Shown one piece after another: positions 24,983 through 52,466 of a DNA stretch of 64,000 nucleotides. The DNA lies in the NCBI RefSeq assembly GCF_900114455.1, contig NZ_FOTC01000002.1, positions 715,012 through 779,011 on the forward strand. The letters are read 5' to 3'. This stretch comes from Halogranum rubrum (GTDB taxonomy: Archaea; Halobacteriota; Halobacteria; Halobacteriales; Haloferacaceae). How positions within the stretch are numbered: position 1 is the first letter of the stretch; each line of letters starts with the position of its first letter. A program made the position numbers and the translations under genes. Under the pieces are notes generated by a model. That model had not been told where the DNA came from. It worked only from the letters and a program-made list of their open reading frames with translations, and ran no database searches.

Positions 24983-25852
24983 TTACTGAATCGCGCCGCC
25001 GATTTCTGCACCGAAGTACAGCACGACGACGAGGAAGATCCAGACGACGTCGACGAAGTGCCAGTACATCGACGCCGTCGTCACCGAGACGTGGCGGCGT
25101 GCAGAGTACTGCCCGCGGAGTGCGCGGACGAAGACGATGCCGATGAGCACCGCACCGAGCGTCACGTGGAGGCCGTGGAGGCCGGTCAGTCCGAAGAAGG
25201 CGGACGCGTAGATACCTTCAGTGAAGGTGAACCCCTCGTGGACGATGAACTCGTAGTACTCGACTATCTGTCCGCCGATGAAGACGGTACCGAGGATGAG
25301 CGTCGTGAGCAGACCGAGGATGAAGCTCCGACGGTTCTCGTTTCTGAGCGAAACTTCCGCCCAGTGGAGCGTGAAACTCGATGCGACCAGCAGTGCGGTG
25401 TTGGCCAATACGAGCGACCCTGCGAGGCCCTCCGGCATGCCGGCGGGCGGCCACGTCGCTCCTGCACGGATGTAGAAGTAGTAGCCGAACAGCGCACCGA
25501 AGGTGCCGAGTTCGGACCCGAGGAACGCGATCATCCCCCAGCGGAGTCCGGAGCCGTGGTCGTCGCTCTCGCCACGTTCCCAGAACTTGACGATGAACGC
25601 GTGATACAGCCAGCCGTAGATGCCGATGAGGAGGACGCCGATGCTCCCGATACCGACGGCCTGTCCGATGATGGGACTGACGAGCGGGTCCTCGCCGCTG
25701 CCGATGATGTACAACGCGGCAGCGACGTAGATGCCTGCGCCGCCGATTGCGGTGACGAACGGCCACCAACTGGCCTCGCCGAAGCCCCGTGGCCAGTCCT
25801 CGACTGCGGGGAGGTGGTGTCCGTGGTCGTCGTGTGAATCTTCGGTACTCAT
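24983..25852 (-). CDS. coxC: Cytochrome c oxidase (haem-copper oxidase) subunit III
   Basis: A 289-residue membrane protein with seven predicted helices. It opens with a His-rich N-terminus (MSTEDSHDDHGHHLPAVEDWPRGFGEASWWPF). Family III blocks are visible: RWGMIAFLGSELGTFGALFGYYFYI (conserved Glu/Gly patch), TFTEGIYASAFFGLTGLHGLHVTLGA (the FxLTGxHGxHV motif) and YWHFVDVVWIFLVVVLYF (the WHFVDxVW signature). It is part of a terminal respiratory oxidase in the membrane; subunits I and II are not in this window. It has its own promoter upstream at about 25880 (TTTTTAGTAG on the minus strand). Confidence 0.95.
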   Translation of the reverse strand: MSTEDSHDDHGHHLPAVEDWPRGFGEASWWPFVTAIGGAGIYVAAALYIIGSGEDPLVSPIIGQAVGIGSIGVLLIGIYGWLYHAFIVKFWERGESDDHGSGLRWGMIAFLGSELGTFGALFGYYFYIRAGATWPPAGMPEGLAGSLVLANTALLVASSFTLHWAEVSLRNENRRSFILGLLTTLILGTVFIGGQIVEYYEFIVHEGFTFTEGIYASAFFGLTGLHGLHVTLGAVLIGIVFVRALRGQYSARRHVSVTTASMYWHFVDVVWIFLVVVLYFGAEIGGAIQ

Positions 25853-26092
25853 ACGCGTGGGTACCAGTCGGACTACTAAAAATCCTCCCAACCGCGTCGC
25901 TCGTCTCGCACGACGACGAGCCAGCGAATGTTGCCGGTTCGAGTGGTACAATCGACGTATCCCGGCGTCGCTCCGCAAGTTACTCGTAGGGGAGTGCCCG
26001 AGTCCCGAATACGACTGTGGTGTCGCGTCAAAAGAGCCAATATCGTCCTCCCGTAACGTCAACCGTTGGCTCGGCATCCACTTTCCAACCCC

Positions 26093-27169
26093 ATGACACA
26101 GCCGTATTCGGTTTCACGCCGGTCAGTACTTCGAACACTAGCTCTCGGCGGCGTTGGCTCGCTTGCAGGCTGTCTCGGCGGGTTCGAGACGCAGTCCGCA
26201 TGGCGTGACCCCCCGCTCGTCGAGAACCGTCCGAACGCAGTCTACCTTCCGGCGATTACCGAGGGGATGAAGATGTACGGTCGAAAGACGGCGGGACCGT
26301 ACGGTGTCGCGCTCACCTACTCTTACCCGCACCGCTTCTGGACGCTCACTGGGGCCGAACGGACCAAGACCCCCGTCCGGAGCCAGGACTCGATACATCT
26401 GATGGTCTCGCTGTGGGACGAGAAGACGGGGACCGTCCTCCCGCTCGACGCGGGCGTGGCCATCGAAATCACACGGGGAGACGAACTCGTCACGCAGGAA
26501 GTCGCATATCCGATGCTCTCTCAGCAGATGGGCTTTCACTACGGGGCGAACTACGCTCTCGACGGGGAGGGAGAGTACACTGCCACGGTCCGAGTCGGTG
26601 GCGTCTCGCTGAACCGCACCGGGTCGTTCGCAGGTCGCTTCGAGAGAGCCGAGCGGGTCGCGTTCGACTTCACCTTCGACACCGACGACTTGTACGACGT
26701 CGACATCCGACGACTCGGCGACCGGCAGGGGACGAGAGACGCCATCGCGCCGATGGAGATGGGCTTTCCAATCGGTCGCGCACCGGACACCGACTCGTTA
26801 CCGGGACAGCACCTCGGGTCGCAGACCAGCGGCGATGCCGTGTTCGACACGTTCGTCGTCGAAGACGGCAGTCGGTTCGGTGTCGAGCAGTCCTACCTCT
26901 ACGTCTCTGCTCGGACACCGTACAATCAGATCATCGTCCCGATGATGGGCCTCGACGCGACGCTGACCAGAGACGGAGAACAACTACTCGACAGGACGCT
27001 AGCGCGAACACTGGACCCAACAGTCGGCTACCACTACGGAACGCCGGTAGACACCGTCGAATCCGGTGACGTCGTCGAACTATCGGTCGACGTCGCCCCA
27101 CAGGTAGCCCGCCACGACGGGTACGAGACGGCGTTCTTCGAGATGCCACCGATGAGATTCCGTTCGTAA
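26093..27169 (+). CDS. Tpd/P19-like metal-binding Tat lipoprotein, copy 1
   Basis: A 358-residue exported lipoprotein: the twin-arginine motif SRRSVLRTLA (8-17) and lipobox SLAGC place the lipid on Cys27. The mature protein resembles the iron/copper-binding Tpd/P19 family: HRFWT, DSIHLMVSLWDEKTG, SQQMGFHYGANYAL with His149, and EGEYTATV. The C-terminal half repeats the theme (VPMMGLDATL...VGYHYGT with His314), so the protein looks like two related domains. A paralogue lies at 36273-37337. P19 proteins bind Cu and Fe through His and Met outside the cell and feed a permease; in this protein the metal is inferred. It leads an apparent operon with the next two genes (5- and 14-nt gaps). Confidence 0.75.
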   Translation: MTQPYSVSRRSVLRTLALGGVGSLAGCLGGFETQSAWRDPPLVENRPNAVYLPAITEGMKMYGRKTAGPYGVALTYSYPHRFWTLTGAERTKTPVRSQDSIHLMVSLWDEKTGTVLPLDAGVAIEITRGDELVTQEVAYPMLSQQMGFHYGANYALDGEGEYTATVRVGGVSLNRTGSFAGRFERAERVAFDFTFDTDDLYDVDIRRLGDRQGTRDAIAPMEMGFPIGRAPDTDSLPGQHLGSQTSGDAVFDTFVVEDGSRFGVEQSYLYVSARTPYNQIIVPMMGLDATLTRDGEQLLDRTLARTLDPTVGYHYGTPVDTVESGDVVELSVDVAPQVARHDGYETAFFEMPPMRFRS

Positions 27170-27174
27170 TCCGC

Positions 27175-27459
27175 ATGACCAACACACACACGACATCGAC
27201 CGGAGAGTCGGTCTCCGATGCGCCCGACGCCGCGTACATCTGTGCGACCTGCGGACAGGCGTATCCGACCGAGACACTGCTGATTCACCACCGGGGGATT
27301 CGCCACCCCGACGACCTCAGCGAGACTGAACTCGAACAGTACCACGAGGCGTACGCCGAAGAGGAGGCGACGCTGCGGCGGTTTCGAATCATCGCCCTCG
27401 GCGGTATCGTCCTCCTCTACTTCGGTTTCCTCTTCATGTACGCCGTCTTCGCGCTCTAA
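27175..27459 (+). CDS. C2H2-type zinc-finger protein with one C-terminal TM helix
   Basis: A 94-residue protein. The motif YICATCGQAYPTETLLIHHRGIRH has the spacing C-x2-C-x12-H-x5-H expected of a C2H2 finger. An acidic helix follows (LSETELEQYHEAYAEEEATLRRFRI), and a single membrane helix closes it (IALGGIVLLYFGFLFMYAVFAL). The finger would sit on the cytoplasmic side if the helix is a tail anchor. Such finger-plus-TM proteins occur beside metal-linked genes in haloarchaea. It starts 5 nt after the Tpd gene and is probably translationally coupled to it. Role unknown. Confidence 0.8.
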   Translation: MTNTHTTSTGESVSDAPDAAYICATCGQAYPTETLLIHHRGIRHPDDLSETELEQYHEAYAEEEATLRRFRIIALGGIVLLYFGFLFMYAVFAL

Positions 27460-27473
27460 GTTGACCATCTAAC

Positions 27474-28904
27474 ATGACCTCGCAGGACGACGACTCCGAC
27501 ACGGACACGCCAGTACAGTTACTCACGCGAGTGAGTAGACGCCTCGCCGTCGTCGCTCTCGCCGCCGTCGCGTTCGTCGGAACCGCCGTCGCGAGCAACG
27601 CCGCCGTCGGTCTCGACAGCGCGTCCCAGCAGTCGCTCAGTGTCCCGCGGTGGCTCTACGTCGCAACCGGTGGGGCGGTCATCGGCGCGTCCGCCTTGTT
27701 GGCGAGTTTCGTGACCGACCGTCGGTTCGTCGCGTCGATTCACTCGTGGCGTCGCTTCCTCACCGACGGACGGACGCTCAGGCGGGGTGCCCGGGTGGGT
27801 CTGTCCGTCTTGGGTGTCGTCCTCCTTCCGCTCGTTGTTCTCAGGGGACTCACCGGTCCGCAGGTCCCCACGGTAAACTTCGCTCTCGTCCTCGTCTTCG
27901 CCGGGATGCGTGCGGGTTTCACCATGGCGACGTATCTCTTCGGGAACGCCTGGCCGTCACTCAACCCGTGGCGGACAATCGCCGAGTTCGCGCCGAACGG
28001 GTTCGTGTCCTATCCCGAACGGTTCGGTCGGTGGCCGGCCGTCGGCGGACTGCTCGCTCTCGTCTGGGTCGAGACGACGACGGGCGTCACCTCGCTGCCC
28101 TCGGTGCTCGCGACGACGATAGCGGTCTACTCCGTCGTCACGACTGTCGGAGCGATACTCGTCGGTCCCGACGAGTGGTTCGAGTTCGTCGACCCCGTCT
28201 CGGTGTTCTTCGCCTTCTACGGCCGGGTCGCCCCGCTGACGTGGACTCGCGAGGGGCTGGAACTCCACCTGCCAGGGATGCGACTCGTCGAGGAAGAGTT
28301 CGTCGACGGCCTCGACGACGTCGCGTTCGTCGTAGCGCTCGTCTGGGAACTGACGTTCAGCGGGTTCGTGACGACGGCGGCCGGCGCGTCGTTCGTCGAA
28401 CTCGTCGCGGGAGTCGGTCTCCCGCCGCTCCTCGTCTACGTCGTCCTCTATCTCGGCGGGTTCGCGGCCTTCGTGGGACTGTACGTGCTCGCCGCCAACG
28501 TGGCCGCGGACTACCTGCCAACCTACCGTTCTGCCCGAGAACTCGCCGTCTGGTTCGCGCCACCGCTTCTCGCCATCGCCGCGGGCTACCATCTCGCGCA
28601 CTACTTCGCCTTCTTCGTCTCGCTGCTCCCCACGCTCGTGACCGTTCTCGGGTCGCCGTTCTCGCCGCCGCCGAACCCGCTGGTTCTCACGCTCCCGGCG
28701 TGGTTCGGGAGTCTCAACATCGCCTTCGTCCTGCTCGGCCATCTGTTCGCCATCTGGGTTGCCCACTCTATCGCGTACGAACGGTTCCCGAGTCGCGTTC
28801 AGGCGATTCGGAGCCAGTACTCGTTCGTCCTCGTCATGATGCTCTACACCGCTCTTAGTCTCTGGCTCATCTCGCTGCCGACGGCGCCGCCGGCGTTTCT
28901 CTGA
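27474..28904 (+). CDS. Polytopic membrane protein, paralogue A of a conserved-His pair
   Basis: A 476-residue protein with about 12 membrane helices. The features it shares with the protein at 31159-32490 are: an (N/S)PWRT loop (here NAWPSLNPWRTI), Y(H/E)(L/V)AH (here YHLAHYFAFF), GHxxAxxxAH (here GHLFAIWVAHSIA) and the ending YTALSLWLISLP. The conserved His in paired helices could bind haem or a metal. Some database relatives carry the label fenitrothion hydrolase (membrane-type FedA/FedB); this is from memory and not evidence of that activity. It follows the zinc-finger gene by 14 nt, third in the Tpd operon, suggesting a permease or electron-transfer partner of the exported Tpd-like protein. 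Confidence 0.7.
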   Translation: MTSQDDDSDTDTPVQLLTRVSRRLAVVALAAVAFVGTAVASNAAVGLDSASQQSLSVPRWLYVATGGAVIGASALLASFVTDRRFVASIHSWRRFLTDGRTLRRGARVGLSVLGVVLLPLVVLRGLTGPQVPTVNFALVLVFAGMRAGFTMATYLFGNAWPSLNPWRTIAEFAPNGFVSYPERFGRWPAVGGLLALVWVETTTGVTSLPSVLATTIAVYSVVTTVGAILVGPDEWFEFVDPVSVFFAFYGRVAPLTWTREGLELHLPGMRLVEEEFVDGLDDVAFVVALVWELTFSGFVTTAAGASFVELVAGVGLPPLLVYVVLYLGGFAAFVGLYVLAANVAADYLPTYRSARELAVWFAPPLLAIAAGYHLAHYFAFFVSLLPTLVTVLGSPFSPPPNPLVLTLPAWFGSLNIAFVLLGHLFAIWVAHSIAYERFPSRVQAIRSQYSFVLVMMLYTALSLWLISLPTAPPAFL

Positions 28905-28937
28905 CTCTGACGTTGCGGTCGGAGCCCGTTTCGCTTC

Positions 28938-29954
28938 TCACTCGTCGTCGACGACCCATCGGAGCGTGACCTCTCTCGTCGCGCTTTCGCGGTCGGCGGC
29001 CGTCCACTCCACGACGACGTACTCCCGAGTCCCGTCCGGCGGCGACGGTGTGTCCGGGATGCCGTTACCGTCGGCCCGGATGCGGGCGTCGTCGTTTATC
29101 TCGCGACCGAGTGATTTGAGATACGCCACTGTCTCGTCGGGCGTCAGCGTCCGGCGACGTTCGCCGACACGTTCGTGTCGTCCGGCGAGGACAGCGTTGA
29201 TGACCGCGCCGACGAGGAGGACGACACCACTGAAGTAGAGCCACGTGACGAGGAGGACGACACCACCGAGAATGCCGTAGGTCGCCGACTTGTCGGCGAA
29301 CGCCGCGTAGACGTGGAACGCTCCCTGGAGGACGGTCCACCCGAGTGCGGCGAACACCGCGCCGGGGAGCGCTTCGGCGAGCGAGAGGTCGACGTCGGGG
29401 AAGACGTAGTACATCGGGAAGAACGCGAAGACGAGTCCGACGAGGAGGAGGAGTGGTTCGAGGACGCCGATGAACGGGACTGCCTCGAAGAGTGCGAGCG
29501 CAGCACCGGCGACAGTCGTCGCAATGGCGGCAAGCCAGATGGCGAACAGGACTACGATGCCGTCGCGGAGTTGGTCGAGAATCGACTCCTCGGACTCGGT
29601 GTCGTAGATGGCTGAAAACGCGGTATCGAGTCCGCGAAAGAGTTTGAGCGACGCCCAGAGCAACGTCAGAAGTCCGAGAACAGAGAACCCCACTTCGCCG
29701 CCGCTGCTCCGAATCGCCTTCGACAACGTGTCACCCATCGACGGTGAAACCGCGTGCGCGACACCGAGGACGGTCTGCACGAGACCAGGGTCGCCGAACA
29801 CCGAGAGCGCCAAGAGCGCGAGAAACAGGAGCGGGAGGAGCGCGACGAACGCGTAGTATGCGATGCTCGCGGCCATGAACGTGACGTCTTTCTCGCGAGC
29901 CTCGACGACGGTCGTTTTCACGACCGACGTCGCGTCGGCGAGTACGGTACGCAT
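28938..29954 (-). CDS. YihY/BrkB-family inner membrane protein
   Basis: A 338-residue protein with about six helices. The family signature is in the N-terminal half: KDVTFMAASIAYYAFVALLPLLFLALL near residue 23, then GDTLSKAIRSSGGEVGFSVLGLLTLLWASLKLFRGLDTAF. The six-TM core ends about residue 265 and a soluble acidic tail follows (RREINDDARIRADGNG...). YihY/BrkB proteins are widespread and of uncertain function (once wrongly labelled RNase BN). It is antiparallel to its neighbours and probably unrelated to the metal operon. Confidence 0.88.
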   Translation of the reverse strand: MRTVLADATSVVKTTVVEAREKDVTFMAASIAYYAFVALLPLLFLALLALSVFGDPGLVQTVLGVAHAVSPSMGDTLSKAIRSSGGEVGFSVLGLLTLLWASLKLFRGLDTAFSAIYDTESEESILDQLRDGIVVLFAIWLAAIATTVAGAALALFEAVPFIGVLEPLLLLVGLVFAFFPMYYVFPDVDLSLAEALPGAVFAALGWTVLQGAFHVYAAFADKSATYGILGGVVLLVTWLYFSGVVLLVGAVINAVLAGRHERVGERRRTLTPDETVAYLKSLGREINDDARIRADGNGIPDTPSPPDGTREYVVVEWTAADRESATREVTLRWVVDDE

Positions 29955-30025
29955 CGGTAGTCAGTATGTAAACGAGACGTAAAGCCGCCGTGGCCGACAC
30001 CGGCATCGAGTGCCGATGCCGCACC

Positions 30026-30376
30026 TCACTCGTCGACGACGTGTTGTCCCCAGAACCCACCGTGTTTCGTCACGAGCAGGTCGCCGTAGACTCGAGTCTG
30101 GCAGGCAAGTCGGAGTCCGGCGTCGAGCGACTCTGCGGAGTGCGGCGGGAACGACAACCGCGCTCGCTCACGTTTCGTCGGGCTACTCACGGCCAACTCG
30201 TCACCGGCAAGAGCGCCGAGTTCGACCGCACACGTCCCGCAGGAGCCGTGTCCGCGACAGTTGAGAACGTCTGCACGCCCGTTGTGCGGTGTCTCGCCCG
30301 CAGCGAGCAGGACGTCTCGAAGAACTGCACCCTCCGGACACTCGATTCGGTTTCCTTCGAAGTCGACGGTCGGCAT
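30026..30376 (-). CDS. 2Fe-2S ferredoxin-like protein
   Basis: A 116-residue protein, MPTVDFEGNRIECPEGAVLRDVLLAAG and onwards. The cluster motif is NCRGHGSCGTC (C-x5-C-x2-C), with the fourth cysteine in RLACQTRVYGDL; this is the beta-grasp 2Fe-2S fold used for low-potential electron transfer. It lacks the long halophilic insertion of the major haloarchaeal ferredoxin, so it is a separate paralogue. It sits between the YihY gene and the DsbA-like gene; partner unknown, but nearby exported redox proteins are candidates. Confidence 0.88.
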   Translation of the reverse strand: MPTVDFEGNRIECPEGAVLRDVLLAAGETPHNGRADVLNCRGHGSCGTCAVELGALAGDELAVSSPTKRERARLSFPPHSAESLDAGLRLACQTRVYGDLLVTKHGGFWGQHVVDE

Positions 30377-30443
30377 GGGTTCCAGTACGGTTCAGCCACG
30401 CAAAGTCCTGAGGGTTAAATAGCCCGAACCCCCTGTTTCGGAC

Positions 30444-31109
30444 ATGGATACGACTCGCCGTGCCCTCCTCGCGACTGTCGGCGGAAGCGCGACGCTCGGG
30501 TTGGCTGGCTGTCTCGGCAACGTCGGTGGAAGCGATTCGGGTGGCTCGAACGGTTCGGGACGTTCCGGTGACTGCGACATCACCGAAGAGCCGAAAGTGC
30601 AGGAACTGACCCCGCCGACGAAAGGTCCGGACGACGCACCCGTCACCGTCAAAGTCTGGAAAGACTACGTCTGTCCGCACTGCGCGACGTTCACCCTCGA
30701 CGTCCTCCCGAAAATCGAGTCGAACTACATCGAGTCCGGCGACGTGAAGTACGAACACCACGACCTTCCGCTCCCGATGAGCGAGTGGTCGTGGACCGTC
30801 CCCAACGCGGCCCGTGGCGTCCAAGACTCGATGGACGACGAGACGTTCTTCGAGTTCTCTCACGAGATGTTCGCAAACCAGGGCAAGTACTCGCTGGACT
30901 TCATCCAGAACAAAGCCGAAGAAGTCGGTGCCGACGGCTGTGGCATCCGTGGCGACGCCATCAACGAGACGTATCGCCCGGCACTCGAAGCCGACAAACA
31001 GCGGGCGCTCGACCGCGGTGCAGAAGGGACGCCCGCCGTCTACGTCAACGGGACGCTCGTCCAACCGACGTGGGAAGAAGTGAAGGCGGCTATCGAAGCC
31101 GAACTCTGA
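30444..31109 (+). CDS. DsbA-like thioredoxin-fold Tat lipoprotein
   Basis: A 221-residue exported thiol-disulfide protein. RRALLATVGG near the N-terminus is the Tat signal and LAGC with Cys23 the lipobox; a Gly/Ser linker follows. The active site is VCPHC with Cys77 and Cys80, in the strand KVWKDYVCPHCATFT. The cis-Pro loop is EGTPAVYVNG. DsbA/DsbG-type proteins catalyse disulfide formation or reduction on exported substrates, for example maturing other envelope proteins. It begins 67 nt from the divergent ferredoxin start and is followed after 49 nt by a polytopic gene in the same direction. Confidence 0.9.
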   Translation: MDTTRRALLATVGGSATLGLAGCLGNVGGSDSGGSNGSGRSGDCDITEEPKVQELTPPTKGPDDAPVTVKVWKDYVCPHCATFTLDVLPKIESNYIESGDVKYEHHDLPLPMSEWSWTVPNAARGVQDSMDDETFFEFSHEMFANQGKYSLDFIQNKAEEVGADGCGIRGDAINETYRPALEADKQRALDRGAEGTPAVYVNGTLVQPTWEEVKAAIEAEL

Positions 31110-31158
31110 ACGACGGACGAACCGACTACGTTTTCCACCGCTGTCGGCAACGTCGAGT

Positions 31159-32490
31159 ATGCGACGTCTCCGCCTCCTTTCGGTTCTCGCGGGACTCTCA
31201 CTGCTTGCGGTCCCGGCCTCTGCCCACCAAGTCGGGACACGTTTCGACGCGCCGCTTCCGCTCTCTCTTCTCTTCGCTGGCGCGGGTGCGACCGTCGCAG
31301 TGACGGCCGTGTTGCTCGCGTGGACCGACGAGACACCGACTGGACAGCGACGAGTCCTGACGGTTCCGTCGTCGGTGGCTCGACCCATCCGTCTCACCGG
31401 GCGTGTCCTGTTTCTGCTCGCGTTCGTCGTCGCACTCGTCGATGGAGTGCTGGGACCGCGTGCGCCACTCGGGAACTTCGCGACGCTGTTCGTCTGGCCG
31501 CTACTGTTGAAAGGGGTCGCGCTCCTCTCGGTGCTCGCCGGAAGCCCGTGGCGAACGCTGTCACCGTGGCGGACGCTCTACGACGGACTGGGGTGGCTCG
31601 AAGGACGAGACATCCAGTATCGGGCGTATCCCGCGTTCGGTGACTGGCCCGCGTTCGTCGGGTTTCTCCTCGTCGTCGGTATCGCAGAGAACCTCACACA
31701 GATACCGCAACGGCCTGCGCTGACCGCCGGACTACTCGCTGTCTACGCCGCAGTGATGCTCCTCGGCGGCGTCGTCTTCGGTCCACGGTGGTTCGACCAC
31801 GCCGACGCCATCGGCGTCCTCTACCGACTGCTCGGGCGTGCAGCACCGTTCCAGGTGCACTCCGGCGACGCCAGTGGTGACACGCTCGTCGCTCGCGTCC
31901 CGTGGCGTGGCTGTCGAGACGCACTCCCACCGAGTGCTGCTGCCTTCGTCGTCGCCGCCGTCTACACGGTGAGCTTCGACGGGTTCGCGGAGTCACCCGA
32001 GTACCGGACACTCTTCTTCGGTATCCGAGAGGCACTCGGCGTCGGCCCGACGGTGAGCATCCTCCTCTATCTCGTTGGACTGGCCGTTTTCCTCGTCACC
32101 TTCGTCGGCGTCACACGGTTCGCCGGCTCTCTCGGTGACGTCGACAGGCCCGTACAGGCCTTCGCCGTGACTGTCGTCCCCATCGCCGCTGCCTACGAGG
32201 TTGCACACAACCTCAGCTACGTCGCGACGTATCTGGGCCAACTTCCGCGAACAGTCGGTGCGGGGAGCGTCGACCTGTTGTTCTGGCTCCCACTCTCCGT
32301 CTACTGGGGGCTCCAAGTCGTCCTCGTCGTCGTCGGCCACGTCGTCGCCGTCGTCGCCGCTCACGCCGTCGCACGACGACTCGTCGAAGGCCGTCGTCGA
32401 GCGCTCGTCGCCCACCTCCCGCTCGTCGCGCTCATGGTCGGCTACACGGTGCTCTCGCTGTGGATTATCTCTCGACCGGTGGCGGCGTAG
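31159..32490 (+). CDS. Polytopic membrane protein, paralogue B of a conserved-His pair
   Basis: A 443-residue protein with a probable Sec signal peptide (MRRLRLLSVLAGLSLLAVPASA, cleavage before HQVGTRFD). About 11 helices follow. Shared with the protein at 27474: SPWRTLSPWRTL, YEVAHNLSYV, GHVVAVVAAHAVA and the end YTVLSLWIISRP. The mature N-terminus H-x-x-G-T-R-F-D-A-P-L-P is a metal-binding-like His motif seen in actinobacterial relatives. It stands between the DsbA-like gene and a beta-propeller gene, 49 and 44 nt apart, so the three may be one transcript. Confidence 0.7.
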   Translation: MRRLRLLSVLAGLSLLAVPASAHQVGTRFDAPLPLSLLFAGAGATVAVTAVLLAWTDETPTGQRRVLTVPSSVARPIRLTGRVLFLLAFVVALVDGVLGPRAPLGNFATLFVWPLLLKGVALLSVLAGSPWRTLSPWRTLYDGLGWLEGRDIQYRAYPAFGDWPAFVGFLLVVGIAENLTQIPQRPALTAGLLAVYAAVMLLGGVVFGPRWFDHADAIGVLYRLLGRAAPFQVHSGDASGDTLVARVPWRGCRDALPPSAAAFVVAAVYTVSFDGFAESPEYRTLFFGIREALGVGPTVSILLYLVGLAVFLVTFVGVTRFAGSLGDVDRPVQAFAVTVVPIAAAYEVAHNLSYVATYLGQLPRTVGAGSVDLLFWLPLSVYWGLQVVLVVVGHVVAVVAAHAVARRLVEGRRRALVAHLPLVALMVGYTVLSLWIISRPVAA

Positions 32491-32534
32491 GCCGAAGAGA
32501 GACGCTTATCCGAGACGGGTGGCAAGGTCGAACG

Positions 32535-33749
32535 ATGCGGATAGCCACCGTCGTCGTCGGTGCCCTCCTCGTCGTCGGACTGCTCGGTGTGGCCGTCGTC
32601 GGCCTCGGTGACTCCGGCGGCGAACTTACCGAACGCTGGGTGAGCGACACCGGTCGGAACGTGCAGTCGAATCACCACGCCGTCGCCGTCGGGGACGGTC
32701 GCGTCTATGCGCCAGTCAGCGCCGAGTCGAAGAGCGATGGCTGTGCACTCGTCGCGCTCTCAGCCGACGACGGCACTACCGTCTGGGACTACCAGATTCC
32801 CACGGAGAACTGTATCATCCACTCCGTCGCCGACCCGACAATCGCGGACTACGACGACGACGGTGTGAACGAAGTACTCGCCGCGACGACCGAGAACGAA
32901 GTCGCCGCCTTCGACCCCGACAGTGGTGAGAAGGAGTTCAACCGAACGCTGTCGGCGTACGGCTACACGCAACCGGTCGTCGCCGACCTCACGCCTGCCT
33001 CGGGACGCGAACTCGTCGTCGTCGACGCCAGCGGCGTCGTCTTCGTCCTGAACAGCGACGGAGACGCGCTGTGGACGCACGACCTCGACGCTCGGGTCTT
33101 CGCGCAACCGACCGTCGCCGACTACGACGACGACGGCGAACCGGAACTGTTCGCCGCTGGTGACGACGGGAACGCAACGCTGTTCGCGGCGAACGGGAGC
33201 GTCGAGTGGCAGAGACAGGCCGGGTCGTCGATTCTCTGGGCGACGAGCGGTGACGCCGACGACGATGCGGCATACGAAGCGTTCGTCGCCACGAGCGGCG
33301 GCGACGTCGTCGCGTTCGATGGACGAGAGGGACACGAAGAGTGGCGACTCGACGCTGGTCGCTACACGGCGGTTCACGCACTCGAAGACACCGACGAGGA
33401 CGGACAGAGAGAGCTCTACGTCACTGCCCGAGACGGAACGCTCCGCCGTGTCGACGCCGCGACTGGCGACGTCGCGTGGAAGATAGACCTCACGGCCGAG
33501 AGCGTCCAGATGATGCCGCCGCCCGTCGTCGGCGACGTCGACGGCGACGGTGCGAGCGACATCGTCGCCGCCGGCAACGACGGCACCGTCTCGGTCGTCT
33601 CACCGGGCGGCGACGTACAGGCGACGTACAGCCGTGACGTCCCTCTCTTCACTCATGCGACGCTCGCCGACACCGACGGGGACGGTGACGACGAGATACT
33701 GGTGATGTACGCCGACGGGCGAGTCGTCTCGTTGGACTACGAAGCGTAG
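32535..33749 (+). CDS. Membrane-anchored beta-propeller (PQQ/FG-GAP type)
   Basis: A 404-residue protein. One N-terminal helix (MRIATVVVGALLVVGLLGVAVVGL) anchors a repeated domain facing outside. Seven to eight propeller blades are seen as alternating VYVTARDGTLRRVDAATGDVAW-type strands with DxDxDG calcium-binding loops: DYDDDGVNE, DYDDDGEPE, DTDEDGQRE, DVDGDGASD, DTDGDGDDE. This mix of pyrrolo-quinoline-quinone-like blades and FG-GAP/VCBS Ca2+ loops is common in archaeal surface proteins that bind ligands or other proteins. It lies 44 nt after the paralogue-B gene in the same direction. Confidence 0.8.
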   Translation: MRIATVVVGALLVVGLLGVAVVGLGDSGGELTERWVSDTGRNVQSNHHAVAVGDGRVYAPVSAESKSDGCALVALSADDGTTVWDYQIPTENCIIHSVADPTIADYDDDGVNEVLAATTENEVAAFDPDSGEKEFNRTLSAYGYTQPVVADLTPASGRELVVVDASGVVFVLNSDGDALWTHDLDARVFAQPTVADYDDDGEPELFAAGDDGNATLFAANGSVEWQRQAGSSILWATSGDADDDAAYEAFVATSGGDVVAFDGREGHEEWRLDAGRYTAVHALEDTDEDGQRELYVTARDGTLRRVDAATGDVAWKIDLTAESVQMMPPPVVGDVDGDGASDIVAAGNDGTVSVVSPGGDVQATYSRDVPLFTHATLADTDGDGDDEILVMYADGRVVSLDYEA

Positions 33750-33899
33750 TTCGAAAGAGCGAACAGACGAAACGACGGTACCGACTCCACGAGTCGATGT
33801 CTCGTACGACCGCAGGTCGACTCGTGGCGCGTGTCAGGCCACACGCTCGGTGGTGCCGTTCTCCTACTTGAACTCTCTTCTCCTCTTCGAGCGGCGCGT

Positions 33900-35177
33900 T
33901 CACTCCCCTGTCGGCGTCGGGAACGAGCGCAGTCGTCGCGGCGGAACGAGGAAGTTACCGCGGCGACGGACGAAGATGTACTCCAGAATCCCGTTGTTCA
34001 CCCGCTGACGGATGGCCGGATTCGAGGTCAGGTCCGTCCCGTTCATCGCCTCTCGAACCTCCTCGAAGACGGAGATGCCCGTCTGGAGCGAGGGGAAGTG
34101 GAGACTGGCGACGTCGTCGTCGGTCGACTCGAAGTGTCGCCGGAGGACGCGGACGTTTCCCTCCTCGTCGCGGTTGGCGCGGGCGGCCTTCTGGGCGTGG
34201 CCGACACGTCCGTACTGTTTGGCCTGTTCCTCGATAGATTCGATGATGTCGGGCGTGAGGCCGCTACTGTCGCCGAGGTTGTCGCCGACGCCGTCCACGA
34301 GTCCCTCTGCGGCGTGCCTCGGGCTGAACATCTCGGCGACCCGGTCCTCGAAGTCCTGTTCGACGTACCAATCGTCGAGACGCTGTCGGATGTTGGCGAC
34401 GTGTTTCGTCGTGCCACCGGCGAACGGTCCGTCTTGGAGCGTGACGTAGTCCTCAGTTGCCTGATTCTGTGCGAATCCGGCTTTGAACCCCATAAACAGT
34501 GGTGACTGCTCGGGAACGGGTTTCGAGTCCGGAATCCCGGCGACGTCCTGTCGCTCGGCGGGCATCCCAGCCCCGACGAATCCGGTGCGCCGCGAGTCGA
34601 CAGCGAGCACGTCGGTGAGCGGTGACTCCATCGTGACGGTGTTCGCGGTGTCGCGGTCGCCCGTGAGCGCCTCCTCGGCTTCGAGGAGAGCGTCGGCACG
34701 CGTCGACCCGAGGTGGAGGAGTGCGTCTTGTCGGTCGAACTCCGGGTCCTCGAACGGCGCGAGCGACCGCGGTTCGGGGAGGTCGAGGTCGTCGGGCAGC
34801 GACTCGTCGAACCGGTCGAAGTAGGCGGGCGAGTAGGCGATGGAGTAGACGAGACCCTCGTGGCTCCGCTCGTAGGCCCGGTCGAGCGTCGTGAGTGCCG
34901 ACTCGAGTACTCGACGGTCGTCTTCGGTGGGCGGGCCGTCGTGGTCGAGGTTCACGTAGAGGAGGAGTTGGTGACGTGGCCCCTCGACGTTCCCAGCGTC
35001 GTCGTGCACGAGAACGTCGTTCCAAGCGTGCTGTCGCTCCGGAAGTGACGAAGGGTCGTCTGTTCCCTTCGGGATCGGTTCCTCGGCACGGCTCATGCAC
35101 GCGGAGAGGGCGCTGGCGCCGCCGACGGCGACGGCCGCCTTCATGAACTCTCGACGCGAGGACGGCCCATCGAACAT
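33900..35177 (-). CDS. Tat-exported DyP-type-peroxidase-like protein lacking the distal Asp
   Basis: A 425-residue exported protein with Tat motif SRREFMKAA and a lipobox SAC (Cys27). The fold resembles dye-decolourising peroxidases: GFVGAGMPAE, then SPLFMGFKAGFAQN where the family's GxxDG motif has Ala in place of the catalytic Asp. Later VGHAQKAARANRDEEG precedes VLRRHFESTDDD, aligning with the proximal haem-ligand block (His, then ILRRGY). I recall relatives under a haloarchaeal domain of unknown function (DUF7405). The protein may still bind haem or iron without peroxidase activity. It stands next to the propeller gene (convergent) and a divergent regulator pair. Confidence 0.7.
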   Translation of the reverse strand: MFDGPSSRREFMKAAVAVGGASALSACMSRAEEPIPKGTDDPSSLPERQHAWNDVLVHDDAGNVEGPRHQLLLYVNLDHDGPPTEDDRRVLESALTTLDRAYERSHEGLVYSIAYSPAYFDRFDESLPDDLDLPEPRSLAPFEDPEFDRQDALLHLGSTRADALLEAEEALTGDRDTANTVTMESPLTDVLAVDSRRTGFVGAGMPAERQDVAGIPDSKPVPEQSPLFMGFKAGFAQNQATEDYVTLQDGPFAGGTTKHVANIRQRLDDWYVEQDFEDRVAEMFSPRHAAEGLVDGVGDNLGDSSGLTPDIIESIEEQAKQYGRVGHAQKAARANRDEEGNVRVLRRHFESTDDDVASLHFPSLQTGISVFEEVREAMNGTDLTSNPAIRQRVNNGILEYIFVRRRGNFLVPPRRLRSFPTPTGE

Positions 35178-35396
35178 ACGTCGGCTAGGGTGTTGCGGCG
35201 TTAAGGGATTCTGGTCCGTCTCCCGAATCTCGACAGCCACTCTTTCGAGAGCCACACCAATCGGCATTTGTCCCTCGGGCTACTACGGTGGCGCAATGAA
35301 GAGTCGGACGTCCTTCCGCCACGCTCTCACGCCGGAGGGCTGGGCGTGACCGGATATCTCGTGCTCCCCTGTCACGTCGTCGCGACGGTGACGCCG

Positions 35397-35684
35397 ATGC
35401 TCGTCCTCGCCGTGTCGCTCGCCGGCCTCGGGTCGGCCGTCGTCGCGGGTCTCGGTATCGCCGCGTACGCACAGCGACGCTCGGGGTCGTACCTCCTCGT
35501 CGCGCTCGCACTCTCTGCGATACTGCTCCGGAGCGCCGTCGCCGTCCTCACTATCGGCGGTGTCATTCCGTTCACGACGCACCACACGGCCGAACACGCG
35601 CTCGACTTCGTGTTGGTCGCGCTGGTGCTCGCGGCCGTCTACTACGCTCGCCGTGTGGAGTCGGCCGCAGGGGTGGACCGATGA
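35397..35684 (+). CDS. Small membrane protein coupled to a double winged-helix regulator
   Basis: A 95-residue protein with three hydrophobic segments (SLAGLGSAVVAGLGIAAYA, SYLLVALALSAILLRSAVAVL, ALDFVLVALVLAAVYYA). Start ATG 35397 is chosen because GGTGA lies 7 nt before it; earlier starts are possible. The stop overlaps the next start (ATGA at 35681), so the pair is translationally coupled. Small membrane proteins joined to winged-helix regulators recur in haloarchaea (compare 5851-6487 in this window). The membrane protein may be a partner or sensor for the regulator; that is inferred. Confidence 0.65.
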   Translation: MLVLAVSLAGLGSAVVAGLGIAAYAQRRSGSYLLVALALSAILLRSAVAVLTIGGVIPFTTHHTAEHALDFVLVALVLAAVYYARRVESAAGVDR

Positions 35685-36202
35685 GCACGACGCGAACGCG
35701 AATCGCCCGCCACGTCCGTGAGAATCCGGGTGTCCACTTCAACGAACTCGTCCGCGGCACGGAGTTTGCTCCGGGTCAGGTCCAGTACCACCTCCGACAA
35801 CTCATCGGCGCAGAGACCGTCTCCGTCGAAGAACTGTACGGTCGGACACACTACTTCCCGCCGACGTTCGACGAATGGCAACGCGGCGCGCTCGCACTCG
35901 TTCGCCGAGAGACGTCGCGCGACGTCATCGGCCACTTGCTCGAATACGGCCCCACCGCCCCGGCCACCGTCGCCGACGACGTCGGTATCGCTCGAAGTAC
36001 ACTAGAGTGGCATCTCGACCACCTCGTCGAGCAGGACGTCGTGACGAAAGAGCGCGACTCTCGAAACCGTGTGACGCTCGTCCTCTCTCGTCCCGACGCG
36101 ACGGCCGAGTTGCTGGCGGCGGTGTCGCCGTCGCTTCCCGACCGCTTCCTCGACCGTTTTACGCGTCTCGTCGACGACCTGCTCGCGGGAGACGTAGAGT
36201 AA
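35681..36202 (+). CDS. Double winged-helix transcriptional regulator
   Basis: A 173-residue protein with two consecutive winged helices: RIARHVRENPGVHFNELVRG plus PGQVQYHLRQLI, then APATVADDVGIARSTLEWHLDHLVEQDVV. Both contain full recognition helices, giving a tandem MarR/ArsR-like regulator. Residues 45-60 form a wing (VEELYGRTHYFPP). It lies between the DyP-like and the second Tpd-like gene, so it is a local candidate regulator of the metal/redox set; no operator was matched. It overlaps the upstream membrane-protein gene by 4 bp. Confidence 0.8.
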   Translation: MSTTRTRIARHVRENPGVHFNELVRGTEFAPGQVQYHLRQLIGAETVSVEELYGRTHYFPPTFDEWQRGALALVRRETSRDVIGHLLEYGPTAPATVADDVGIARSTLEWHLDHLVEQDVVTKERDSRNRVTLVLSRPDATAELLAAVSPSLPDRFLDRFTRLVDDLLAGDVE

Positions 36203-36272
36203 ATCGGACTGAACGAAGCGTTCGAAGACTGGACCAGAACCCGTAACCCACCGAGATGCTAACTGACGAGTA

Positions 36273-37337
36273 ATGCAACGACGCGCCTTTCTCGGGGCCG
36301 CTGGACTCGGTCTCACCGGATCACTCGCTGGCTGTACGGCCGTCTCCAACGTCTTCGAGACGACGAACAGCCGCGAACCGCCGCTGGTCGAAAATCGACC
36401 GGATGCCATCTACATTCCAACTCACAGAGAAGGAATGGAGATGGTCGGGATGGGCGACGCCGGCGGTCTGAAGGTCGGCTTGATGTACAGCTACGCCCAC
36501 CGCTTCTGGACAGTGGACCCGGACGGCGGAAGTTACGTAGCCACCGAAGTCCCGCTCGAAGCCGACGACTCGATTCACCTCATGGCCGTCGTCTGGGAAG
36601 CGGAGACGGGCGTCGTGGTGCCCTCCACGGACGTCACGGTCGAACTGACCAACGACGACGGACTCGTCTACGAAGAGGTCGTCTACCCGATGTTCTCACA
36701 GCAGATGGGCGTCCACTACGGCGACAACGTTCCACTCCCTGGCGACGACATCTACACCGCGAAAGTAACCGTCGCTGGTCTCCCCTTCGAGCGGTTCGGC
36801 GCGTTCGACGGGCAGTTCGAGCAGGCCGCCACCGCCACCATCGAGTTCGACTACCGAGAGGGCCAGCGCAACGACATCCCGTACTCCCTCCTCGAAGACA
36901 AACAGGGCCAGCGCGGGACGGTTCCGCGGATGGAGATGGAGATGCCACAGGGCGTCGCCCCGAGTTCGCTTCCGGGCGAGACCATCGGCGAAGGAAAGAC
37001 CGAGACACAGGACATCACGTTCCGCGCACAGGCAGCCACCGACGACCGATTCGGCGACACCCCGTATCTCCTCGTCTCACCGAAGACCCGCTACAACGGC
37101 TATCTGGTCCCGCAGATGGGGCTGTCGGCGACGGTCGAACGCGACGGCGAGACGGCGTTCGAAGGCGACCTGACGCCAGGGCTGGACCCCGAGGCCGGTC
37201 TCCACTACGGCGCCCCCGTCGAGAACCTCACTCCCGACGACACCGTCACCGTCACTATCGACGTTCCTCCACTCGTGGCTCGTCACGAGGGCTACGAGAC
37301 GGCGTTCTTCGACGTCGGCAGCGTGACAGTCGAGTGA
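36273..37337 (+). CDS. Tpd/P19-like metal-binding Tat lipoprotein, copy 2
   Basis: A 354-residue paralogue of the protein at 26093 with the same layout: Tat motif QRRAFLGAAG, lipobox LAGC (Cys23), PPLVENRPDAIYIP, YSYAHRFWT, SQQMGVHYGDN with His148, and a second HYG in AGLHYGAP with His311. The ending ARHEGYETAFFD is nearly identical to copy 1 (ARHDGYETAFFE). The pair shows clear similarity along the whole length, so it arose by duplication, with the two copies now 9 kb apart and flanking the polytopic, DsbA, propeller and DyP genes. Metal preference is inferred from the Tpd/P19 resemblance, not seen. Confidence 0.75.
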   Translation: MQRRAFLGAAGLGLTGSLAGCTAVSNVFETTNSREPPLVENRPDAIYIPTHREGMEMVGMGDAGGLKVGLMYSYAHRFWTVDPDGGSYVATEVPLEADDSIHLMAVVWEAETGVVVPSTDVTVELTNDDGLVYEEVVYPMFSQQMGVHYGDNVPLPGDDIYTAKVTVAGLPFERFGAFDGQFEQAATATIEFDYREGQRNDIPYSLLEDKQGQRGTVPRMEMEMPQGVAPSSLPGETIGEGKTETQDITFRAQAATDDRFGDTPYLLVSPKTRYNGYLVPQMGLSATVERDGETAFEGDLTPGLDPEAGLHYGAPVENLTPDDTVTVTIDVPPLVARHEGYETAFFDVGSVTVE

Positions 37338-49042: not shown

Positions 49043-51649
49043 CTACCGTCTGCGGAACGCGCCGAGCAAGCGATAGCGTTTCTCTGGGTCGTACCGGCGG
49101 AAGACGAGACTGTTCGCCAACACCGAGACGCTGGAGAGCGCCATCGCACCGGCCGCCAACACCGGTTGGAGGAGGCCGAGCGACGCCAGCGGAATCATCG
49201 CCGTGTTGTAGCCGAGCGCCCAGAAGAGGTTCTGCTTGATCTTCGCCAGCGTCCCCTCGGAGACGTTGATGGCGCGGAGCACGTCCGCCGGGTCGTCGCG
49301 CATGAGCGTCACGTCCGCCGCCTCGATGGCGACGTCCGTTCCGCTACCGAGTGCCGTCCCGACGAAGGCGGCGGCGAGTGCGGGTGCGTCGTTGACGCCG
49401 TCGCCGACCATCATCGCACGTCGACCGTCGGACTGGATGTCCTCGACGACGCTCGCTTTGTCCTCCGGGAGCACGCCCGCTCGGACGTTCTCGGGGTCGA
49501 TACCGACCTGCTCGGCGACGGCGCGCGCCGTCCGCTCGTTGTCGCCAGTCACGAGCATCACGGTGAGGCCACGCTCGCGGAGCGCGGAGACGGCCGTCTG
49601 CGACTCGGATTTCACTTCGTCGGCGACGGCTAACACGCCGAGTAATCGACCCGTCTCTGCGTCGTCGGGTACGCGAGCGACGAGCATCGCCGTCTTCCCC
49701 TCACGTTCGAGCGTCGCCATCGTCTCCTCGGCGGGCGACGGGTCGACGTCGTACTCGCGGAGCAGTTCGGGTTTGCCGACGAGGACGTCGCCGTGGTCGG
49801 TTCGTGCACGGATTCCCTTCCCGGCGACGTTCTGCAGCGCGGCCGGGTCGGAGACGTCGATACCGCGGTCTCTCGCGCCCTCGACGACGGCTTCGGCGAT
49901 GGGGTGTTCGCTCCCTGCCTCGGCGCTAGCCGCCACGTCGAGCAGGAACTCCTCGGTCAGTTCGTCACCCTCGTACTCACTGGTGTCGTCTGTACTGACG
50001 ACACCCGACCCGTCGGTCTCGGGTCGGAGCACCCGCACGTCCGTGAGCGTCATCTCGCCTTTCGTGAGCGTGCCGGTCTTGTCGAAGATGACCGTGTCGA
50101 CGTCGCGAACGCGTTCGAGCACGTCGCCGCCTTTGAACAGGATTCCGTGACTCGCGCCGATGGCGGTTCCGACCATCGTCGCCGCCGGCGTCGCCAGCCC
50201 CAGCGCACAGGGGCAGGCGATGAGCACGGCGCTCGCGAAGACGATGATGGCGAACTCGGCCGACGAGACGGCACCGGGACCGCCCGCGACGAGTCCCCAC
50301 AGCGGCAGCGAGTCGACGAACCCCGCGAGTACGTTGGGGAACAGATACCAGACGGCACCCCACAGGAGCGCGTTCAGGATGACCGCCGGGACGAAGTAGG
50401 CGCTGATGCGGTCGGCCAGCGTCTGAATCTCGGGTTGGCGACTCTGGGCGTCCCGAACCATCTGGACGATTTGCTGAATCGCCGTCTCCGACCCGACTTT
50501 CGTCGCTCGGACGTAGACCAGACCGGTCTCGTTGATGGTCGACCCGACCACTTCGTCGCCGGGTTCCTTCTCGACGGGAACCGACTCGCCGGTGACCATC
50601 GACTCGTCGACGGCCGTACTTCCGTCGATGACTTCGCCGTCGGTCGGAACTTTCTCGCCGGGTCGCACTTTCAGTACGTCGCCGACTTGGACCTCTTTCA
50701 GGGGAACCTGTCGCTCGTCGACGAACTCGCCGTCTCGTTCACTCACGACCGTCGCTTCGTCGGCTTCGAGTTCGAGCAACTGCTCGATGGCCGCCCCCGC
50801 CTGACTCTTCGAGCGGGCTTCGAGATAGTTGCCGAGCGTGATGAACGTCAAGATGAGCGCGGCGCTCTCGAAGTAGAGGCCGCCCGCGACGAAGCCGAAG
50901 AGGACGGCAAGACTGTATCCGTAGGCCGTCGACGACCCCAGCGCGATGAGGACGTCCATGTTGGCAGTGCGGTTCTTGACGAGCGCTTTGTAGGAGTTGA
51001 CGTAGAACTCCTTGCCGAGAGCGACTTGAACGGGTGTCGACAGTGCCAGTGCCCACCACCCTCTCTCGACGCCGAAGAGCGTCTCGGGCACCGGAAGCCC
51101 AACCAGTTCGCCCATCATCAGCACCGAGAGCGGAATCGCGAACGCCGCCCCGAACAAGACGAGTCGAAGCTGTCGCTTCACTTCGGCGTCGCGGGCGCGC
51201 TTCCGACGCTCGGATTCGTTCTCGTCGCCGCCGGTGTCACGGACGGGCGAGTAGCCCGCGTCCTCGATGGCGTCGTAGATGGCGTCGCGGTCGGTGGCTG
51301 CAGGGTTGTACCGAACCTGCGCCTCGTCGGTGGCGTAGTTCGCGTCGACCGAGACGACACCCGGAACCTTCGAGACGGCCGATTCGACCGTCTGCGAGCA
51401 GTTCGCGCAGGTCATGTCGGTGATGCCGACCGAGAGCGTCTCGGCGACCGGGTCGTATCCCGACTCCTCGATGATTTCGTACACCTCCGCCAGCGATATC
51501 TGGTCGGGGTCGTACTCGACGGTCCCCTCGTCGGTTGCGTAGTTGACGTTTACCTCCCCGATTCCCTCCCGCCGTGTCAGTGCTTCCGTGATGGTAGACG
51601 AGCAGTTCGCACAACTCATCCCACCAATCTCGACCCTGACTCGTTCCAT
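49043..51649 (-). CDS. copA: Copper-exporting P1B-type ATPase with two N-terminal HMA domains
   Basis: An 868-residue membrane pump that removes Cu+ from the cytoplasm. HMA domain 1 has GMSCANC (Cys13 and Cys16) and domain 2 MTCANC (Cys81 and Cys84). The transmembrane metal site is [13 protein letters not shown] near residue 480. The phosphorylation loop is [13 protein letters not shown] near 520, and later [12 protein letters not shown] and [14 protein letters not shown] belong to the P and N domains. It closely fits CopA. The start is ATG 51649. It is downstream of, and probably controlled by, the TRASH/Lrp-type regulator gene. Confidence 0.95.
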
Positions 51650-51723
51650 TGCAGTCACTTGGTACTACATAAGGGTCCCCTACTCATGCGGATTGTGACT
51701 CAGAAACTGTGGGTCGAAGTGGC

Positions 51724-51734
51724 CGAAACTTTCG
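51724..51734. promoter_or_regulatory. Palindromic operator candidate in the copA promoter
   Basis: CGAAA-c-TTTCG is a perfect 11-bp palindrome just downstream of the TATA-like ATTAAAAAC (minus strand), about 75-85 bp upstream of copA. The half-site CGAAAGT (minus strand) recurs in the palindrome between the regulator and copZ genes. Confidence 0.5.
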
Positions 51735-51749
51735 TTTTTAATGTCCCGT

Positions 51750-52340
51750 CTACGCGCCGCTCTGGAGACGCTCGAACCGGTCTTCGAAGTTCGCGAGACA
51801 GGTGCCACAACAGAAGTGATACAGTTTGTCGTCGAGGCGGGCGGACTCGCCCTCACTCGTGACGTGATTACCGCACTCTGCGCAGGTGAGTGCCAACGTC
51901 GCATCACCGAGCGAGGGCGACCACTCGGACCCTCGGAGCAGGCGTACGTCCACGTCTCGGACCTGTTCGAGGTCGATTGCCTCGGCGAGGAGGCCGGTCA
52001 CGTCGCCGTCGCGGACCGTGGCCTGCACGACGACTGCGCCGTCGGCCGTCTCGAAGGTGTGCTCGACGGCGTCGAGTTCGCCGAGTGCCGTCGCCACCTC
52101 GCCAGCGCGGTCCACCGGAACGTCGAGTTCGACGAGGACGGGGACGCCGGTGTTTAACAGCGAGCGGTCGACGTCGACGGTGAACCCTCGGACGACGCCC
52201 AGTTCGCGCAGACGGTCGATACGGTCGGAGACGGCCGGGGCGGAGAGGTCGACGTGGTCGGCGATGTCGCTGTACGGTCGCCGAGCGTCGTCGACGAGCA
52301 ATCGGAGGATGTGACGGTCGGTGTCGTCGAGGTCACGCAT
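51750..52340 (-). CDS. Lrp/AsnC-type regulator with C-terminal TRASH metal-sensing domain
   Basis: A 196-residue regulator. The N-terminal HTH is DLDDTDRHILRLLVDDARRPYSDIADHVDLS and APAVSDRIDRLRELGVV. A RAM-like sensing domain follows (FTVDVDRSLLNTGVPVLVELDV...). The end is a TRASH domain with CAECGNHVTSEGES and CCGTCLANFEDRF; these Cys/His motifs bind copper or other soft metals. I recall a close relative in Halobacterium that controls the copper ATPase. It is divergent from copZ and upstream of copA on the same strand; the dyads in both promoters fit autoregulation and copA control. Confidence 0.88.
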   Translation of the reverse strand: MRDLDDTDRHILRLLVDDARRPYSDIADHVDLSAPAVSDRIDRLRELGVVRGFTVDVDRSLLNTGVPVLVELDVPVDRAGEVATALGELDAVEHTFETADGAVVVQATVRDGDVTGLLAEAIDLEQVRDVDVRLLRGSEWSPSLGDATLALTCAECGNHVTSEGESARLDDKLYHFCCGTCLANFEDRFERLQSGA

Positions 52341-52355
52341 GGTCCACCGTACTCG

Positions 52356-52413
52356 CTCGTCCGGGAAAGCGATTTCGTGCGGACTTTAGATTCGAAAGTC
52401 AATGCCGGACGAG
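52356..52413. promoter_or_regulatory. Nested inverted repeats between copper-regulator and copZ genes
   Basis: The outer arms CTCGTCCGG (52356-52364) and CCGGACGAG (52405-52413) are perfect 9-bp inverted repeats. Between them lies GACTTTAGATTCGAAAGTC (52382-52400), palindromic at 8 of 9 pairs around its centre. It includes CGAAAGT, shared with the copA palindrome. This is the divergent promoter of the regulator (minus) and copZ (plus). Confidence 0.6.
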
Positions 52414-52466
52414 ACATTCGTCGTGAAACGAAAAGGGAGTAAACGACGTCACCTATAGACAAGGAT

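Follow-up and report, generated by a model that had tools for sequence, protein, structure and literature searches.

A conserved haloarchaeal gene module with P19-like lipoproteins and a candidate role in surface metal-redox chemistry

In bacterial P19 systems, an iron-binding protein that depends on copper is paired with an FTR1 permease (PMC10783030, PMC11966278, PMC6083913). Haloarchaea lack FTR1 (0 of 97 genomes sampled), the permease that P19 serves in bacteria, yet they still hold P19 homologues, which already carry the automatic annotation "iron transporter." With which proteins do these homologues work, and on which metal? The question is raised by a window of 64,000 nucleotides from Halogranum rubrum (assembly GCF_900114455.1, contig NZ_FOTC01000002.1, positions 715,012 to 779,011), where 12 genes at window positions 26093-37337 begin and end with such a homologue. 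From the letters of this region, an original prediction had proposed an undescribed surface metal or redox system. We read the region as holding a conserved extracytoplasmic module, probably of metal-redox function, in two copies. We give a probability of roughly 0.5 to the reading that this is a P19-based surface module, in which the tandem P19 lipoprotein Tpd and the DUF7405 protein form the core and a polytopic membrane protein family, for which we use the working name POLY, is the candidate membrane partner.

The P19-type core and its conservation

The two lipoproteins, TpdA (26093-27169, plus strand) and TpdB (36273-37337, plus strand), are 46% identical. Each begins with a twin-arginine translocation (Tat) lipoprotein signal (RR...LAGC) and continues into a PF10634-like N half and a DUF7350 C half (PF24041 E 5.6e-57 for TpdA; DUF7350 E 1.4e-48 and PF10634 E 8.6e-10 for TpdB). 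Both exceed the curated cut-off of 21 bits for PF10634 (Iron_transport), TpdB with 39.4 and TpdA with 22.2. When compared with known structures, a profile of 35 Tpd sequences matches FtrA (8vv5, E 3.7e-6) and another P19-type protein (3nrp, E 0.0018); a 34 kDa membrane antigen (2o6c, E 0.085) is a weaker match. By these profile matches Tpd is a homologue of P19/FtrA, and the Tpd/P19-like identity first assigned to it is confirmed. The P19 metal motif, PM...GxHYGdN, falls inside the alignment of the Tpd and FtrA profiles. The residues invariant in the Tpd family (H80, H102, M104, M141, M146, H149 and H341 in TpdA numbering) include counterparts of the bacterial HLE, PM...GPHYG and RHxxxE motifs in the form of IHLM, M141...M146GxH149YG and RH341xGYE; the profile aligns the PM...HYG stretch only, and the other two were matched by eye. 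In the first motif, Met replaces the Glu that follows the first His of bacterial HLE. Because hhalign finds homology between the N half and the C half (probability 96.6, E 5e-10), each Tpd is a tandem P19, of which the C half has retained HYG and the terminal RHxGYETAF and has lost the first His/Met cluster. Outside the haloarchaea, the genome of Rubrobacter taiwanensis encodes a single-domain P19-like lipoprotein immediately before a DtxR-like regulator gene (L215:1075-1776 and 1861-2535, by eye), and it carries POLY too.

The second core protein, DUF7405 (33900-35177, minus strand; PF24152 E 7e-169), is Tat-exported. Compared by profile with nine EfeB/DyP sequences (taken from plasmid and bacterial records), it gave an hhalign probability of 96.1 (E 3e-9, 289 columns). 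Foldseek returned DyP or EfeB structures for all of the top 50 matches; the AlphaFold2 (AF2) model searched with is of low confidence (predicted local distance difference test, pLDDT, 43) and was used solely for its agreement with the profile comparison. By homology, then, DUF7405 is a true member of the DyP superfamily, and in this respect the earlier label "DyP-like" stands; it does not extend to the catalytic aspartate of GxxDG, since the LGFKDG of DyP proteins aligns with MGFKAG in the window protein (consensus MGFKSG), placing Ala or Ser at the Asp position. H327 and the arginines R346-R347 of an LRR motif are invariant. In the hhalign alignment the distal Arg of DyP is aligned; H327 has spacing that fits the proximal heme ligand but lies three columns off there. 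Canonical DyP is nearly absent from haloarchaea (1 of 116 genomes), and DUF7405 would exemplify a DyP protein that has been retained despite the loss of the catalytic Asp. A further DyP-copper neighbourhood was seen on a Rhodococcus plasmid (L222:1-1371), where a DyP-type peroxidase gene overlaps the gene of a PCu(A)C copper chaperone.

Do these proteins belong together beyond this one genome? DUF7350 occurs in 254 of 292 genomes of the class, and in a sample of 145 haloarchaeal genomes DUF7405 is present in 128 and POLY in 99. In this sample the occurrences are nested: all 99 POLY genomes hold Tpd, all 124 Tpd genomes hold DUF7405, and four genomes only have DUF7405 without Tpd. Since the absences are spread over about seven genera, and both states occur within g2, g4 and g35, several concordant losses lie behind the nesting. 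Two control families show no such pattern, namely DUF7471, which is present in many genomes lacking Tpd, and BrkB, present in 143 of the 145; the nesting is therefore not a general artefact. DUF7471 was for the same reason rejected as a marker for presence of the module, although it often lies beside DUF7405 (by eye, DUF7471 was counted within 3 kb of at least 36 DUF7405 genes).

Gene order points the same way. DUF7405 lies within 4 kb of Tpd in 28 of the 64 Tpd copies listed from shared genomes, 25 of them on the same strand, where about 0.2 would be expected. Besides the core and POLY, the region encodes a C2H2-like zinc-finger protein with one transmembrane (TM) helix (ZNF), a TM-anchored beta-propeller (32535-33749, plus strand; PQQ_2/FG-GAP, PF13360 E 1e-21), a DUF7471 membrane protein with an HHxxEH motif (35397-35684, plus strand; PF24283 E 3e-30; H62, H63, E66 and H67 invariant in the numbering of the open reading frame) and, overlapping the DUF7471 gene by 4 bases, the gene of an HVO_0163-type double winged-helix regulator (HTH; 35681-36202, plus strand; PF24266 E 1e-35). 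A six-frame hidden Markov model search of 65 loci, chosen for presence of POLY or Tpd, found these genes paired within 4 kb as POLY-Tpd (37 times, in 59 POLY loci), POLY-ZNF (27), Tpd-DUF7405 (21), POLY-propeller (19) and DUF7471-HTH (16). At 41 haloarchaeal loci found through POLY alone (38 from clade B, described below), a set that partly overlaps the first, we counted the propeller 29 times, Tpd 17, DUF7471 16, HTH 16 and DUF7405 14. The genes of Tpd, DUF7405, POLY, the propeller and the DUF7471-HTH pair cluster far beyond chance; Tpd and DUF7405 are the core, to which many genomes add POLY, the propeller and the DUF7471-HTH pair. Co-occurrence and gene order in haloarchaea, which the original prediction had named as its check, thus speak for it.

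These counts also bear on the idea that exported proteins have gathered here by chance or through shared horizontal transfer, with no function in common. It would suit the mixed strands of the region and those neighbours that are local only (ferredoxin, DsbA, BrkB and a major facilitator superfamily gene, MFS), while the nested co-occurrence, an adjacency so far above expectation and the recurrence of the same partners in differing orders in many genera oppose it. For the core it is largely refuted, and we consider it very improbable.

POLY, an unnamed membrane family

The window encodes two members of the family, POLY A (27474-28904, plus strand) of clade A and POLY B (31159-32490, plus strand) of clade B. 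They share 28-31% identity and the invariant His residues, so the original description as two polytopic paralogues with common His motifs was right. No Pfam or NCBIfam model matched POLY, and no sequence relative was found in the PDB. The AF2 model of POLY B, built from 44 sequences, has a pLDDT of 91.7 and a predicted template modelling score (pTM) of 0.89; Foldseek returned nothing below E 0.001 for it, and the best VIA-align Z was 5.1, which is not proof of a new fold. Neither POLY A nor POLY B matched the FTR1 family in Pfam, and the sole REXXE string of POLY A (REGLE) lies outside the conserved residues of the family; together with the missing FTR1 of the sampled haloarchaea, this agrees with the earlier statement that the permease is not FTR1-like. 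We set aside a possible link of POLY to proteins called "fenitrothion hydrolase": no Pfam or NCBIfam model matched, no usable paper was found, and the plasmid homologues are annotated "hypothetical protein."

The 99 POLY sequences compared share W131, P136, Y346, H350, W383, H394, M426 and T430 without exception, and H402 almost without exception; POLY A retains the equivalents of Y346, H350, H394 and M426. In 33 of 33 bacterial sequences that have the region and in 27 of 27 from clade B, a His (H23) comes first after a signal-peptide-like AxA motif (read by eye), and in the same sequences D274 is always Asp. The pair in clade A is H/D in 10 sequences, N/S in 23, M/S in 1 and R/D in 1; in the window, POLY A has N/S and POLY B has H/D. 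The N/S pair is mainly a single evolutionary change, as most N/S sequences fall in one clade, but it links both positions. Because POLY B keeps the N-terminal His and Asp274 where POLY A has Asn and Ser, the two are probably not interchangeable.

In the POLY tree nearly all haloarchaeal sequences, of clades A and B together, form one clade (62 tips, support 0.996) within bacterial diversity. We read this nesting as a transfer from bacteria, after which the haloarchaeal family would have split into its two clades. The family is widespread in bacteria (Alphaproteobacteria, Burkholderiales, Chloroflexi, Rubrobacter and others), so that an "independent haloarchaeal solution," as first proposed, can apply at most to the combination of genes. 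Clade A has ZNF as its neighbour, plus Tpd or cox3; clade B has the propeller, DUF7405, Tpd and HTH. Just upstream of bacterial POLY, 21 of 37 loci hold the gene of a small secreted HxHGYD...H protein, whose profile matches cupredoxin-fold enzymes (copper nitrite reductase, E 3e-7; two-domain laccase, E 7e-7). A gene for a secreted YNCE-like propeller was seen in 14 bacterial POLY loci (for example L178:6175-7353), mostly divergent to POLY; a propeller partner thus recurs in bacteria, but from a different propeller family.

The remaining genes of the region differ in how closely they follow the module. ZNF (27175-27459, plus strand), the partner of clade A POLY, has a CxxC...HxxxxH arrangement whose C23, C26, H39 and H44 are invariant in 25 homologues; its match to the Pfam zf-C2H2 model (15.9 bits) stays below the cut-off of 25.2. 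The BrkB/YihY family protein (28938-29954, minus strand; PF03631 E 3e-43) is a bystander, not being conserved at the module locus. The 2Fe-2S ferredoxin (30026-30376, minus strand; Fer2, PF00111 E 1.7e-6) and the DsbA/thioredoxin-fold Tat lipoprotein (30444-31109, plus strand; Thioredoxin_4/DSBA, PF13462 E 1.4e-27) recur no further than the genus of the window and a small number of relatives, and DsbA lies near POLY in few loci (L069, L090, L103, L129). Ferredoxin, DsbA, BrkB and MFS were accordingly rejected as core parts on account of their local conservation, and the first two drop out of the system as originally drawn. Otherwise the gene inventory of the original prediction holds in a gene-by-gene check: the genes it listed are present, and BrkB/YihY and DUF7471 have to be added. 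Aside from the module, BrkB/YihY is expanded in haloarchaea: the genome of the window has six copies, and a relative has as many as eight. An exported multi-TM protein with no Pfam family (MLAITLVATIGTVPLASAHGGHIYVNGV..., cluster c19) recurs near Tpd/POLY loci (L080:3252-4382 and relatives).

Which metal, and by what mechanism

We suggest a plausible scheme for the module. The conserved His/Met site of the tandem P19 would bind copper, iron or both; we infer that the fused halves mimic the bacterial P19 dimer, which they would replace. DUF7405 would bind heme via its conserved His and either alter the redox state of the metal or remove metal-generated peroxide. POLY, whose last membrane helices carry two invariant His together with a Met and a Tyr, would take the metal or its electrons at the membrane, in the place held by FTR1 in bacterial P19 systems, and the DUF7471-HTH pair would regulate. 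That the module handles a metal is moderately likely; calling POLY a permease would go one step beyond that. Since 25 Tpd genomes are without POLY, Tpd and DUF7405 would have to work there with another membrane partner or with none. In favour of the scheme count the homologies, invariant residues, nested co-occurrence and clustering given above, the absence of FTR1 and near absence of canonical DyP, the covariation of H23 and D274 in POLY and the secreted cupredoxin-fold neighbour of bacterial POLY, which is the other type of soluble component in Ftr systems. In a bolder version, which we consider less likely than not, POLY would be a family so far unrecognised, which either transports copper or iron at the membrane or consists of metal-dependent redox proteins, and it would do FTR1's job in bacteria and haloarchaea; its partner would be a cupredoxin in the former and the fused double P19 in the latter, and metal would enter at the mature N-terminal His and the Asp (Asn/Ser in a second class).

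Several results weigh against this scheme. The core can do without POLY, which is missing from 25 of the 124 Tpd genomes, and searches of Pfam, PDB sequences and Foldseek detected no similarity of POLY to any known transporter. Peroxidase activity of DUF7405 is doubtful because the DyP Asp is missing. The 145 genomes are not independent, as losses cluster by genus, and they represent fewer independent events than their number. The DtxR-type iron box of haloarchaea, TTAGGNNNNCCTAA, has 7 sites in 1.38 Mb, none of them seen, by position, before a Tpd, DUF7405 or POLY gene; this weakens simple iron-starvation control. The neighbours of the plasmid-borne modules are ATPases of Zn/Cd/Pb type, for neither iron nor copper. 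Finally, Haloferax volcanii carries DUF7350 and DUF7405, and the iron-starvation table of PMC11349517 uses HVO numbers that could not be matched to them.

The same locus would also fit a role in respiration, in which POLY, together with a soluble partner (tandem P19 in haloarchaea, a cupredoxin in bacteria), moves copper and no iron, for example in building heme-copper oxidases. Clade A POLY has cox3 as a neighbour in roughly a dozen haloarchaeal loci as well as in the window, where the gene of cytochrome oxidase subunit III (24983-26077 as the longest open reading frame, true start probably about 25852; minus strand; PF00510 E 3e-37) precedes the module; the order in the window's relatives is COX3-POLY-ZNF, and here TpdA occupies the slot between cox3 and ZNF-POLY A. 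Four bacterial POLY loci (L182, L190, L201, L205) have cox1/2/3 or heme-synthesis genes nearby, and the cupredoxin fold of the bacterial partner suits copper. Copper His-brace proteins have an N-terminal His, as POLY would have at its predicted mature N terminus. Most POLY-Tpd modules, however, lie away from oxidase genes, the cox3 neighbourhood may go back to a single ancestral event, iron is what P19 relatives are known for, and genomes without POLY presumably make oxidases still. We regard copper delivery as a serious but doubtful alternative. As for the cargo, P19 ancestry speaks for iron, whereas the cupredoxin and cox neighbours speak for copper, as does the fact that an iron box is apparently lacking; we lean slightly towards iron, combined with a copper site like that of bacterial P19, rather than copper alone.

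Plasmids raise another possibility, that the module protects against heavy metals by binding or oxidising toxic metal at the surface or by removing the resulting peroxide. On Haloarcula pNG600 and Haloferax pHME505, copies of the module sit in heavy-metal islands with P1B-type ATPase, CDF, ZIP and multicopper oxidase-like genes; pHME505, a plasmid of Haloferax mediterranei, carries Tpd-ZNF-POLY. K/DxG is the Zn/Cd/Pb signature of P1B-type ATPases, and the plasmid ATPases show it; a copper ATPase beside the module was thus rejected, and these neighbours do not point to copper. In the window itself, a CopA-type cluster lies 12-15 kb from the module. Set against these islands, most chromosomal copies have no such neighbours, and nearly the whole class has Tpd and DUF7405, which suits a housekeeping system rather than a resistance island; protection is in our judgement unlikely. 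The plasmid version (P1B ATPase, CDF, DUF7471-HTH) is almost identical across several genera (L066, L100, L105, L106), pointing to recent horizontal spread. The CopA-type cluster of the window (49043-52664) is a separate copper homeostasis cluster, which encodes a P-type ATPase with two HMA domains and an MxxSS signature, an HVO_1752-like AsnC-TRASH regulator and an HMA chaperone.

Comparison with known systems

No paper on the module was found in the literature searched, nor any mention of DUF7350, DUF7405 or DUF7471, and in the main text of two reports on haloarchaeal iron starvation and denitrification (PMC11218638, PMC11349517) we found no reference to these genes; the system is, as first proposed, undescribed. 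Its nested co-occurrence narrows the candidate partners to a few (DUF7405, POLY, DUF7471-HTH), open to testing in a haloarchaeon amenable to genetics. Should POLY be a metal permease, a membrane family without a Pfam model or matched fold would gain a function in several bacterial phyla.

The parallels to P19/FtrABCD and EfeUOB drawn in the original prediction hold for P19 and for the DyP/EfeB homology; they do not hold for the Fe-S protein, as the ferredoxin is only locally linked. Like Campylobacter FetMP-FetABCDEF (PMC6083913, PMC10783030), the region combines a P19 metal-binding protein with thioredoxin-fold and polytopic membrane proteins, and a passage of PMC10783030, citing its reference 12, holds that the copper site of P19/FetP is needed for iron transport. 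There, however, FetM is an iron permease and FetBCD a predicted ABC transporter, whereas our locus has no FTR1-type permease and no ABC transporter of that sort; moreover, Campylobacter P19 is single-domain, whereas haloarchaeal Tpd is a tandem fusion. In FtrABCD of Brucella and Bordetella, FtrA (P19) is coupled with a cupredoxin and with a permease (PMC11966278), and this system resembles our module in joining P19 with a membrane partner; bacterial POLY and its cupredoxin-fold neighbour parallel FtrC and FtrB. FtrC belongs to the FTR1 family, to which POLY has no detectable relation, and the module has no FtrD-like protein. EfeUOB likewise encodes a Tat-exported DyP-superfamily protein together with an exported metal-binding protein, but our locus has no match to EfeU (FTR1) or EfeO (M75), a P19-type protein stands in place of EfeO, and DUF7405 differs by its lost GxxDG Asp. 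Streptomyces DtpA, a DyP-type peroxidase in copper-dependent maturation of GlxA, is also a Tat-exported DyP protein tied to extracytoplasmic copper handling; the abstract of PMC4736821 mentions neither P19 nor POLY, and DUF7405 is without the DyP Asp. Among these systems, the module is real, conserved and undescribed, a variant of the P19 kind in which POLY is a component without a matched fold.

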